NCBI GenBank assembly: GCA_022563455.1
Contig: JADFNI010000004.1
Span: 1-40,021, forward strand
Source of the DNA: Nanobdellota archaeon
GTDB lineage: Archaea > Nanobdellota > Nanobdellia > Pacearchaeales > GW2011-AR1
DNA length: 40,021 bases
Reading direction: 5' to 3'
The position numbers and the translations under genes were made by a program. Numbering within the stretch: position 1 is the first letter of the stretch; every line of letters starts with the position of its first letter. Under the pieces are notes generated by a model that did no database searches, had not been told where the DNA came from, and worked only from the letters and a program-made list of their open reading frames with translations. Below are positions 9,507-19,121 of this stretch, in pieces.

Positions 9507-9609
9507 GCTCTCGTAACTCAGCCTGGATAGAGTGTCTGCCTTCTAAGTGTACTCCGAAAGGATGAATGGAGTAAGCAGAAAGTCGCAGGTTCAAATCCTG
9601 CCGAGAGCG
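9507..9609 (+). tRNA. tRNA-Arg (TCT) with a 28-nt intron at canonical position 37/38 (approx. 9546-9573)
   Basis: Acceptor GCTCTCG/CGAGAGC, anticodon stem TCTGC/GCAGA, loop CTTCTA...A, T-arm GCAGG TTCAAAT CCTGC; intron contains TACTCC/GGAGTA stem. Confidence 0.92.
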
Positions 9610-12163: not shown

Positions 12164-14596
12164 ATGGGGTGGTATGCATTTATTAGTTTGGCGCAAGACG
12201 GACGTATAAAGTTTTTACTCGTTTTTATCTTCGTCGCTGTTGGAATTGCATCCGTTCTTACATTTGTAGAATTTAGACTTAATAAAAGAAAAAAGGCCCA
12301 CGAAGAAAGAAGTAATGAACAGTCTTTGGTGGATTATTTGAATAGATCCTCTATGTCTAATAATACTCCTGTGGAAAAATTGAAAATATTAGATTATTCA
12401 GTCAAGGTTTATTTTAGAGATGCATTTGGATTTAAATTGAGTAATAGTTATTCTGAATTAATAAAATTATTTGAGCAAAGAGGAAAAAATAATTTAGCTA
12501 AATTTTGTAATGAAATTTTTGAAGCACATTACTCTCCCAATGAAATTAGCGAGTTAAAAGTTAAGGAATTATTTTCTTCTTTTGAAAGAATAGTTAGATC
12601 GAGTAAGAAAAAAATTGAGGATGTTAAAGATTATAAAAATGGCTTTAATAAAATTGGGAATAAATTTTCTGTTTTGACAAATTATTTTTCAAGAAATTTA
12701 AAAATTATTAAATCAAAAAGAATATCTCGAAAGGTTGAGTCTAATGTTCGAAAGAATGCTAGGGAGAATGCTAGGGTGGCTTCCTTGAATGATAAGGTTC
12801 AGCAAAGAGTATTTAAGATTCAAGAAAAAGAGGATAAAAAGAAAACGAAGATTGAATTAAATAATAAATATAAATTGGTTAGGATAGCTTATGCAAAGAA
12901 AAAGGGGGTCGAAAAGATTCAAAGAAAGAATAACAGGAGAAAGGTAGTTAATAATTTGAAGAAAGAGGCCGTCATTCAGATGTTTAATGGAGTTAGATTT
13001 GTTCGGAAAAAGAAAATTAATTTTAAAAGAAGAATTGAAAAATCAAGAGATTTGAGAAAAATTTCTAAAGAAAGAAAAAAAATATTGGCAGAGAAAAAAG
13101 AACTTTTTAGATTAAATGCTCGAAAAATTGAAGAAAGAGAAAGAGCACATTTGAGGCATGGTGTTTTATTAAAAAAATTATCTCGGAAAAAAGAAAAAGA
13201 AGAAAAGAGAAGGCAGAGAAAAGAGACGAAAGAAAGAAAGAAAAAACTAAAGAAGGCAAATAAGCTAAAAATCCTCGCAAGAAAAGATATTTTGAAGAAG
13301 CAAAAAATTGCTATTAAGGAAGAACAGAAAAGAGTTAGAAATTTACGAAAAGAACAGAAAAGAAAAGAAAAGAAAGCAAAGAGACTAAAAATCCTCGCAA
13401 GAAAAACTATTTTGAAAAGGAGAGCTGTGGCTGTTAAGGGAGAGAGAAAAAGAGTTAGAAATTTGGAGAAAGAAAGAAAAATTTTTTTAATTCTGGAAAA
13501 AAAGAAGAAGAAAAAGATAGCGAGGGAGAAAGAAAGAAGAATTAAGGAAGCTAGGGAGAAAATTTTGACAGATGAGGCAAGATATAAAAAAGAGCAAATT
13601 TCTAAAGAGAAGAGAGTAAAGTCTGAACAAAAAAGAAAAGAAAAAGAAGCCAAAAAGAAGCTGAAGATATTATTGAAAAGGCAAAGAAAGGCTCGAGCGG
13701 ATGAATTAAAAACAGAAAAACAGAGAAATCTTTTAGAAAATAAGAGAATTCGTCAGATAAAGCTTAATGAAATAAGGATTAGCAGAGCTAAGGTTATCAA
13801 AAGCGAAAAATCTTTTGAAAAAAGAGAGATTAATTCTAAGAAAAAATTAGGATTTCTTTTAAAAAAATCTAAATTGTTAGATCTAACACAGGGCAAAAGT
13901 GAAAGAAGTATACAATCTGAAATTTTGAAAGATGAAAAACAGCTTGGAAAGAAAAATAATTTTTGGGCCTTTGATCTTTTTAAGAAGATTAAGAAAAGGA
14001 ATGGACAAAGAAAAATTGCACGAGATCTTTCTAGAAAGAAAAAATTAGCCGAAAAAATTCGAAAAAGAAATATAATCCAAAAGGCTAAACAGAACAAAAA
14101 AATTGAAATTCAAAGAAAACGTGAACAAGCGACTGCCTTTAAACTTGCACAGAAAAAATTAAAAGATTTTGATAAAAATAAACAAAAAGAGATAAGGCAA
14201 AAGATTAAGCTTGCAGGAATATTGAAAAGAAAACGAGTTAGAGATCAAAGAAAACTTGACCGGAAAAAGGAGAAGTTATTAAAAAAGGAGAGAAAGCGAA
14301 AAGAAAAGGCTTTGAGGATCCAAAAAAGGGAAGAGGCTAAGACTCTAAAGAAAGAGCTTTTGGAAGTGAGGAAGAAGGCACTTGAAAAAAGGAAGCGTGA
14401 ACTAGGTGTTCAAAATAAGCTATCAGCAGCAAAAAAACTTGGAGCAAAAAGAGATAGTTACTTGAAAAGTAAATTGTTAAGAGAGAAAAATAAGAAAATG
14501 AAAGATATAGCATCTCGAAGACAAAAAATTATTAAGATTTATCCTATTGGGAGCCTGGAATGGATGAAGGAATTAGATAGAAATTCTAGGAAATGA
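12164..14596 (+). CDS. Single-TM, extremely Lys/Arg/Glu-rich long helical protein
   Basis: N-terminal TM (FLLVFIFVAVGIASVLTFVEF) followed by ~750 residues dominated by K/R/E with essentially no Pro; continuous 810-codon ORF. Confidence 0.85.
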   Translation: MGWYAFISLAQDGRIKFLLVFIFVAVGIASVLTFVEFRLNKRKKAHEERSNEQSLVDYLNRSSMSNNTPVEKLKILDYSVKVYFRDAFGFKLSNSYSELIKLFEQRGKNNLAKFCNEIFEAHYSPNEISELKVKELFSSFERIVRSSKKKIEDVKDYKNGFNKIGNKFSVLTNYFSRNLKIIKSKRISRKVESNVRKNARENARVASLNDKVQQRVFKIQEKEDKKKTKIELNNKYKLVRIAYAKKKGVEKIQRKNNRRKVVNNLKKEAVIQMFNGVRFVRKKKINFKRRIEKSRDLRKISKERKKILAEKKELFRLNARKIEERERAHLRHGVLLKKLSRKKEKEEKRRQRKETKERKKKLKKANKLKILARKDILKKQKIAIKEEQKRVRNLRKEQKRKEKKAKRLKILARKTILKRRAVAVKGERKRVRNLEKERKIFLILEKKKKKKIAREKERRIKEAREKILTDEARYKKEQISKEKRVKSEQKRKEKEAKKKLKILLKRQRKARADELKTEKQRNLLENKRIRQIKLNEIRISRAKVIKSEKSFEKREINSKKKLGFLLKKSKLLDLTQGKSERSIQSEILKDEKQLGKKNNFWAFDLFKKIKKRNGQRKIARDLSRKKKLAEKIRKRNIIQKAKQNKKIEIQRKREQATAFKLAQKKLKDFDKNKQKEIRQKIKLAGILKRKRVRDQRKLDRKKEKLLKKERKRKEKALRIQKREEAKTLKKELLEVRKKALEKRKRELGVQNKLSAAKKLGAKRDSYLKSKLLREKNKKMKDIASRRQKIIKIYPIGSLEWMKELDRNSRK
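13265..13504 (+). repeat. 120-bp (40-aa) diverged tandem repeat inside the K/R-rich CDS
   Basis: CTAAAAATCCTCGCAAGAAAA occurs at 13265 and 13385; protein LKILARKDILKKQKIAIKEEQKRVRNL... vs LKILARKTILKRRAVAVKGERKRVRNL... Confidence 0.8.
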
Positions 14597-18793: not shown

Positions 18794-18803
18794 TTTTTAA
18801 ATT
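18794..18803 (+). promoter_or_regulatory. TATA-type tRNA promoter element upstream of the tRNA-Gln repeat array
   Basis: TTTTTAAATT begins 33 nt before the first AGTCCCG unit; the same TTTTTAAATT begins 32 nt before tRNA-Lys (30371 vs 30403). Confidence 0.6.
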
Positions 18804-18826: not shown

Positions 18827-19048
18827 AGTCCCGTAGTCTAAAGTAACTTTAGAAAAGTTTCATAAAGACTACTGAACTGAAATAGAAGTCCCGTAGTCTA
18901 AGGTGACAAGCAGATGTCTCCAAAAGACAACGTGATTAAGAGTCCCGTAGTCTAAGGTGACAAGCAGATGTCTCCAAAAGACAACGTGATTAAGAGTCCC
19001 GTAGTCTAAGGTGACAAGCAGATGTCTCCAAAAGACAACGTGATTAAG
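18827..19048 (+). repeat. Tandem array of four units each beginning with the first 14 nt of tRNA-Gln (one 60-bp divergent unit, three perfect 54-bp units)
   Basis: AGTCCCGTAGTCTA at 18827, 18887, 18941, 18995 and again as the 5' end of the intact tRNA at 19049; 54-bp unit AGTCCCGTAGTCTAAGGTGACAAGCAGATGTCTCCAAAAGACAACGTGATTAAG repeated exactly three times. Confidence 0.97.
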
Positions 19049-19121
19049 AGTCCCGTAGTCTAGTGGTCAAGGATCTAGCCCTCTGAAGGCTGGGACCCCG
19101 GTTCGAATCCGGGCGGGACTA
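19049..19121 (+). tRNA. tRNA-Gln (CTG)
   Basis: Acceptor AGTCCCG/CGGGACT, anticodon arm TAGCC CTCTGAA GGCTG, T-arm CCCGG TTCGAAT CCGGG. Confidence 0.95.

Follow-up and report, generated by a model that had tools for sequence, protein, structure and literature searches.

Small inserted hairpin cassettes that copy gene start signals in a genus of Nanoarchaeota: a possible strand-exchange switch

What kind of sequence repeats the beginning of a tRNA gene directly in front of that same gene, and what might the repetition do? The window analysed here (the whole stretch of 40,021 nucleotides, contained in a 0.97-Mb archaeal MAG) carries an intact tRNA-Gln(CTG) at 19049-19121 (+), detected by ARAGORN and Rfam, whose first 14 nucleotides, AGTCCCGTAGTCTA, occur five times, at 18827, 18887, 18941, 18995 and 19049. 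A sequence search confirmed these exact positions, previously reported in a first-pass annotation of the window, whose sum of 60 + 3 x 54 = 222 bp from the first copy to the tRNA is also correct. TRF reports a period of 54 with 100% matches over 18887-19062; the copy number of the array in this MAG rests on its assembly. The best explanation of the array is the tandem expansion of a small inserted cassette.

An array of four modules in front of tRNA-Gln

The features of the array are the following.

18794..18803 (+), TATA box TTTTTAAATT, with its start 33 nt ahead of the first head; no other tRNA promoter was seen
18827..18886 (+), module U1 (60 bp, diverged): head 18827-18840, upper hairpin 18845-18859, anti strand 18866-18878, linker 18879-18886
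18887..18940 (+), module U2 (54 bp): head 18887-18900, upper hairpin 18905-18918, anti strand 18925-18937, linker 18938-18940
18941..18994 (+), module U3 (54 bp, same as U2): head 18941-18954, upper hairpin 18959-18972, anti strand 18979-18991, linker 18992-18994
18995..19048 (+), module U4 (54 bp, same as U2): head 18995-19008, upper hairpin 19013-19026, anti strand 19033-19045, linker 19046-19048
19049..19062 (+), target, nucleotides 1-14 of tRNA-Gln, identical to all four heads; free to pair with U4's anti strand or with the acceptor strand at the tRNA 3' end
19114..19120 (+), 3' acceptor strand of tRNA-Gln; its partner can be either the target or any head

Modules U2, U3 and U4 are defined by the TRF repeat and by matches to a core model, R2. 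The first unit also matches R2 (56.3 bits, E 4.5e-9; fold z -2.35), and its initial description as divergent stands, but it is a homologous, diverged module and not an unrelated leader. The predicted fold of U2 has -15.8 kcal/mol (z -4.33). As had been noted, the distance from TTTTTAAATT to the first module is 33 nt, counted from start to start, and tRNA-Gln itself has no TATA-like sequence before it.

Elsewhere in the window, Rfam identifies a tRNA at 9507-9609 (+) with 56.7 bits, immediately 5' of tRNA-Cys, which appears to contain an intron and was overlooked by ARAGORN without intron search. A separate ORF of 810 aa, at 12164-14596 (+), consists nearly entirely of charged repeats rich in Lys, Arg and Glu, and encloses a 120-bp DNA tandem repeat.

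The module has a covarying structure

As judged from sequence comparison, the module is a member of a previously unnamed family of small inserted hairpin cassettes. Its parts follow a fixed order: a head, which copies the downstream start signal, an upper hairpin, an anti strand complementary to the head, a linker, and then the target. Four helices covary, GTCT (nt 10-13) with AGAC (39-42), CGT with ACG, AGTC with GATT, and GACA with TGTC, and the first three join the head with the 3' part of the unit; the D-arm-like pairing of GTCT with AGAT proposed at first is not the conserved one. In an alignment of 15 modules, comprising the head:anti helix and the upper hairpin, 88% of the cells are paired and 11 of 15 pairs are doubly changed. 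With 58 cores, double changes occur in 11/11 pairs, 89% of the cells are paired, and the covariation score is 0.568, against 0.135 when shuffled and at most 0.145 in slid controls; covariance folding of the unit, advised in the first pass, thus found a covarying structure. Fold z-scores of the modules range from -1.5 to -5.8, and linkers are shared between sites, in a cassette-like manner.

The array matches no Rfam family, either at gathering thresholds or at E<=5, and hence no riboswitch; likewise, no C/D or H/ACA guide RNA was found in it by Rfam, even at E<=5, and on this ground these and other known RNAs were rejected as the identity of the module. A CRISPR array, in which identical repeats enclose differing spacers, does not fit, as the 40-bp intervals of U2-U4 are identical and the 3' part of the interval covaries with the head.

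Distribution of the cassette

A search of relatives for repeats headed by tRNA 5' ends, another suggestion of the first pass, showed that the module recurs at tRNA-Gln and other genes in MAGs of the genus. We located about 110 sites in 15 of the 17 genomes of this single Nanoarchaeota genus; the core model R2 gives 114 matches in the same proportion of genomes (15/17), with 33 in one genome and zero in two. All genomes compared are MAGs. The recurrence at tRNA-Gln and at many genes of independent MAGs is far beyond chance, and the presence of the same module in them argues against an assembly artefact.

In 211 genomes of the order that lie outside this genus, R2 yields almost nothing, the exceptions being two weaker matches in one sister genus. 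Core-like sequences of 41 and 32 bits in a sister genus (L185 and L186, in G191 and G032) have no tRNA or long ORF assigned as target. When the repeated tRNA 5' end was used as a pattern independent of the core, another genus of the family (G068, G132 and G208) proved to have this architecture too, with divergent cores. Over 382 genomes of the phylum, this pattern showed no other lineage, bar one unrelated tRNA-Pro duplication in a distant family (L246, G290:C32:7595-7658), a partial 5' copy without an anti strand that looks like a separate event.

A GTDB-wide scan for the exact core returned 14 matches. Most are MAGs of this genus whose deposited names are 'archaeon' or 'Nanoarchaeota archaeon'; about five are unrelated bacteria, a number near chance expectation. 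A viral carrier was discarded, the single exact core match in IMG/VR lying within a phage coding sequence and being taken as chance. Literature searches found no description of such an element, and we know of none that copies the start signal of whichever gene is its host, brings an antisense strand to match, and is found at all three of tRNA genes, start codons and TATA boxes.

Three kinds of target

The cassette has three classes of target: the 5' ends of tRNAs for ten amino acids, the start codons of protein genes that are essential, and TATA boxes. Genes for tRNA are the target at 45 of the 110 sites examined. Many members of the genus carry a module, usually single, directly 5' of tRNA-Gln; the other hosts are tRNAs for Val, Ala, Ser, Glu, Arg, Asp, Gly, Tyr and Thr, and the head always copies the 5' end of its own tRNA. 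At many other sites the head copies the start codon region, as with ATGGCTAAAG, present twice at EF-1A, and heads of the third class reproduce a TATA box that lies some 25 nt upstream of a leaderless start.

The original view of the module as specifically a tRNA 5' fragment, or tRNA-like, is not supported, since start codons and TATA boxes carry the same cassette with heads that copy those signals. This also weighs on the idea that the module is a source of stable small RNA or an RNase P decoy, cut at a tRNA-like 5' end and active in trans, for example like a 5' tRNA fragment encoded by the genome. The head does begin exactly at tRNA nucleotide 1, the module folds well, and tandem copies would raise dosage; but there is nothing tRNA-like at start codons or TATA boxes, and the anti strand would mask a tRNA-like head, so we regard this explanation as very improbable.

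Pfam assigns to the target genes the ribosomal proteins S2, S10, S12, S28e, L6 and L7Ae, together with EF-1A, eIF2 gamma, Rpb2, an RpoD-type RNAP subunit, TBP and SecY, and also FtsZ and a SNF2 helicase; further carriers are an RNase J-like protein, an Elp3-like radical-SAM protein, a copper-type ATPase and a nitroreductase (the Elp3, RNAP D and RNase J identities are our reading of Pfam domains). The series from S2 to SecY would suit a riboswitch or protein-binding leader in which the conserved loop and the upper hairpin form an aptamer for a signal co-regulating tRNAs with translation or transcription genes, as would the high conservation of the loop TAAAGTAAC...GTTTCATGA within one genus. 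Nevertheless, the core sequences diverge in the second genus although its architecture is retained, there is no Rfam match, the exact core is essentially confined to this genus in the GTDB-wide scan, and FtsZ, the copper-type ATPase, the nitroreductase and others carry the cassette too, all of which make an aptamer improbable.

Promoters and leader processing

At the leading modules of tRNA sites, a TATA-like box occurs 24-40 nt before the head in 29 of 33 cases (mode 30 nt), and before the tRNA itself in 2/33. This bears out the early proposal of a promoter before the first unit, with the tRNA behind a structured leader. In tRNAs without modules, the TATA box is at the same distance from the tRNA (mode 29-30). 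Given this spacing, and a box A that in Nanoarchaeum equitans lies 26 nt before the transcription start (PMC3491384), transcription probably starts at or near nucleotide 1 of the head, and the tRNA is probably transcribed behind the cassette.

A full-length RNase P RNA candidate, below the Rfam cut-off, was found in the genome of the window (E 7e-21), and candidates for RNase P RNA and Rpp30 are present in most genomes, so the leader would be removable in principle. A loss of RNase P as in N. equitans was rejected for the same reason.

A putative strand-exchange switch and its predicted folds

We give about an even chance to the cassette being a strand-exchange switch of the start signal, closed either as head:anti or as anti:target. 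This reading builds on what the sequences display (architecture, covariation, identity of head and target, an anti strand that tracks the target, insertion at gene starts, tandem growth and promoter placement); from these we infer that both states interconvert in the cell, with a ligand and a benefit.

In transcript order, the strands would be the head (H), the conserved upper hairpin, the anti strand (A) and the target (T), and A would pair with H or with T, like segments 1:2 versus 2:3 of an attenuator, leaving one start copy masked at a time. At tRNA genes, the 3' acceptor strand (C) would act as a fourth strand. In state 1, H:A would be closed and T:C would give the normal tRNA fold, ready for RNase P; in state 2, A:T would be closed and H would occupy C, producing an unusable precursor. 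If the head must then also replace the target against the acceptor strand, identity of head and target would be needed at tRNA genes. At protein genes, A:T would cover the start codon, with a Shine-Dalgarno-like sequence in the loop, and translation of a small ORF from H, ending on the real start codon, would reopen A:T. The balance between states might be set by folding kinetics, by a bound protein or ligand, or by ribosome movement.

RNAfold computations on the window give a native acceptor pairing of 1.0 when the tRNA is folded by itself, 0.22 when U4 precedes it and 0.00 when U1-U4 do; the favoured structure places a head on the acceptor strand and the anti strand on the tRNA 5' strand. 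Over 33 tRNA sites, median native pairing is 0.30 with the module and 0.95 with a shuffled leader, and native pairing is 0.65 when the head alone is shuffled and 0.0 when the anti part alone is shuffled, values that depend on multiloop parameters, as does the H:C state, and that ignore cotranscriptional folding, which favours head:anti first. The computed folds show that the states are near-degenerate, and not which of them the cell uses.

Several results count against a switch. At most sites (37/40, 20/29 and 15/15) the computed stability of H:A exceeds that of A:T, so that the off state may be rare; shuffling A alone brings the computed native state to 0; and in the TATA-box class the target lies about 25 nt upstream of a leaderless start, with no obvious RNA-level logic.

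The computed H:C fold leaves the core and A:T as an insertion in the D-loop, which could recall an archaeal bulge-helix-bulge intron lying between head nucleotide 14 and tRNA nucleotide 15 (in mRNAs, after about codon 3) and flanked by direct repeats; native upstream flanks that join the head would also fit. However, when 10 repeat-equivalent junctions were tried at each of 40 tRNA sites, only 14 sites could form the 4-bp central helix at any of them; the helix is not conserved, and an intron cannot apply to TATA-box sites. Of all the explanations weighed here, we consider this the most improbable.

Matching of head, anti strand and target

The strand-exchange reading concerns mutually exclusive pairings, one of which would mask the start codon, and these exist at the level of sequence complementarity, the anti strand being able to pair with head or target. 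Pairing of anti with target exceeds all 2000 shuffles in each of the three classes (0.78, 0.89 and 0.74 against 0.62, 0.52 and 0.53). At start-codon sites, the anti strand fits the target better in 17 cases and the head better in none, with 8 ties (p 1.5e-5, an optimistic value since sites share ancestry and their counts are not independent events). Part of this excess comes from the A-run ahead of the ATG, but several of these sites differ within codon 2, for example in G003, G015 and G016. Target-site duplication alone was rejected as an explanation, as it does not account for an anti strand that tracks each target.

At tRNA genes, head and target agree at 393 of 400 positions, 84 of which are left unpaired by the anti strand. 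The head thus equals the target even where the anti strand pairs with neither, which indicates that it is more than a partner of the anti strand; its identity could reflect a fit to the tRNA 3' acceptor strand, or simple duplication. Differences between head and target are too rare here to tell which of them the anti strand serves.

Of 25 start-codon sites, 19 have no stop between the head ATG and the real start in the frame of that ATG, compared with 0/25 and 3/25 for the other frames, and in those 19 the small ORF stops at +1, +4, +5 or +17 of the real start codon. At tRNA sites, where no such ORF occurs, a TAG lies inside the hairpin in the same frame in 8/27 cores. Judging by its layout, the ORF from head to target is what translational coupling would need.

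Insertion and tandem growth

Relatives provide empty sites to set against occupied ones with a duplicated target, as broadly expected of an insertion element. At L6, one relative is empty and reads TTTCTATTAAG-ATGAATAAAGATTT, and the sequence in two genomes is TTTCTATTAAG-ATGAAYAAAG-cassette-ATGAATAAGGATTT. Two genomes have a cassette at EF-1A, which most genomes lack there, and the tRNA-Gln(TTG) locus, whose promoter spacing stays the same, carries one in some genomes but not in others. At occupied sites, the native upstream flank joins the head. The earlier suggestion of repeated insertion at the tRNA 5' end comes close to this picture, but its integrase attachment origin found no direct support: units of 54-60 bp leave no room for an integrase gene between repeats.

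This genome has further tandem arrays at tRNA-Ser and tRNA-Ala, and other genomes have them at the tRNAs for Thr, Gly, Glu and Val. Several of them, as in the window, have a diverged first module followed by identical ones adjoining the tRNA. Within about 1.3 kb (L092, G000:C34:9800-12400), a two-copy start-codon array at S10 and a three-copy array at tRNA-Ser(GGA) occur together. Another two-copy array, which has a divergent core and was missed by the core model, precedes tRNA-Ala(TGC) shortly after what looks like the 3' end of a 16S rRNA (L242, G000:C12).

The patchy distribution over functionally unrelated genes looks like spread and not like a tuned regulon. The main rival to the switch, which we hold to be rather unlikely, is a selfish insertion that masks itself: a small mobile hairpin would insert at gene starts and duplicate the start signal, it would be tolerated since its antisense arm hides the surplus head, no regulation would be selected, and arrays would arise by direct-repeat recombination. 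Such an insertion would agree with empty sites that are clean and a target that is duplicated where the cassette sits, with a copy number from 0 to 33 per genome, with targets of three unrelated kinds, with shared cassette-like linkers, and with arrays whose tRNA-proximal copies are identical; moreover, in the computed ensemble a head without the anti strand would take the acceptor strand (native 0.0). Conversely, an anti strand that only masks should fit the head at least as well as the target, against the 17 to 0 in favour of the target at start codons, and the frame ending on the real start codon is kept. In addition, the mover would have to supply an inverted arm specific to each target, and no transposase was found. 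For the Y1 transposase (PF01797), there is no match in G013 (33 elements), G002 (17) or G000, MAGs that are incomplete, and the domain is present in G006, which has no elements, so that its number does not follow the number of elements.

A strand-exchange switch and a selfish insertion can be combined, as a spreading cassette put to use. Tentatively, with somewhat less than even confidence, we propose a new class of element: a mobile or proliferating cassette that would carry a direct and an inverted copy of the host start signal at each site, act as a two-state switch on tRNA maturation, translation initiation and perhaps promoter use, and be stackable in tandem to tune output. The arms would be matched to a new target either by selection on a few bases after insertion or by a copying mechanism, and under both readings how a short repeat gains arms matched to each target becomes testable. 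If switching is real, the folding of a precursor tRNA would be regulated in cis by strand exchange, for which we know of no precedent, and the cassettes may be built-in switches on essential genes; if there is only self-masking, they would show a novel means by which very small genomes can bear an insertion in essential genes without harm.

Comparison with known systems

Translational attenuators of the ermC/ermB type have alternative pairings 1:2 and 2:3, a short leader ORF and a masked start codon. The start-codon class of the cassette has a comparable layout in sequence, with an open frame from head to target that might serve as a leader ORF and a start codon that would be masked. In contrast, segment 1 of the cassette repeats segment 3, the start signal itself; its small ORF terminates on the real start codon; and the cassette is not confined to start codons but is also found at tRNA genes and TATA boxes. 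Leader-peptide attenuation is described for ErmB in PMC8274638.

With prokaryotic 5'-leader riboswitches, the cassette shares a conserved structured leader, covarying stems and a strand-competition geometry; unlike them, it has no Rfam family, is restricted to one family of organisms with a core not conserved across genera, sits on tRNA genes, and has a head that copies the target.

Rickettsia palindromic elements, REP sequences and MITEs are short, multi-copy, hairpin-forming and inserted in or beside genes, all of which applies to the cassette. It differs in that its head and antisense arm match each new target, in its position at gene starts, and in having no terminal repeats of its own and no linked transposase found.

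In the Thermoproteales, transposed tRNA introns bring short sequences that resemble one another into different tRNA genes and spread inside a lineage (reviewed in PMC4090602). The cassette is alike in both respects, but has no conserved bulge-helix-bulge, is flanked by a copy of the tRNA 5' end, and occurs also at protein genes and TATA boxes. Finally, the tRNA-C/D box sRNA dicistrons of N. equitans have an sRNA with C/D boxes downstream of the tRNA (PMC3491384). As with the cassette, a small RNA is joined to a tRNA gene in a related lineage; the cassette, however, lies upstream of the tRNA, shows no guide-RNA match, and carries a head and an anti strand.
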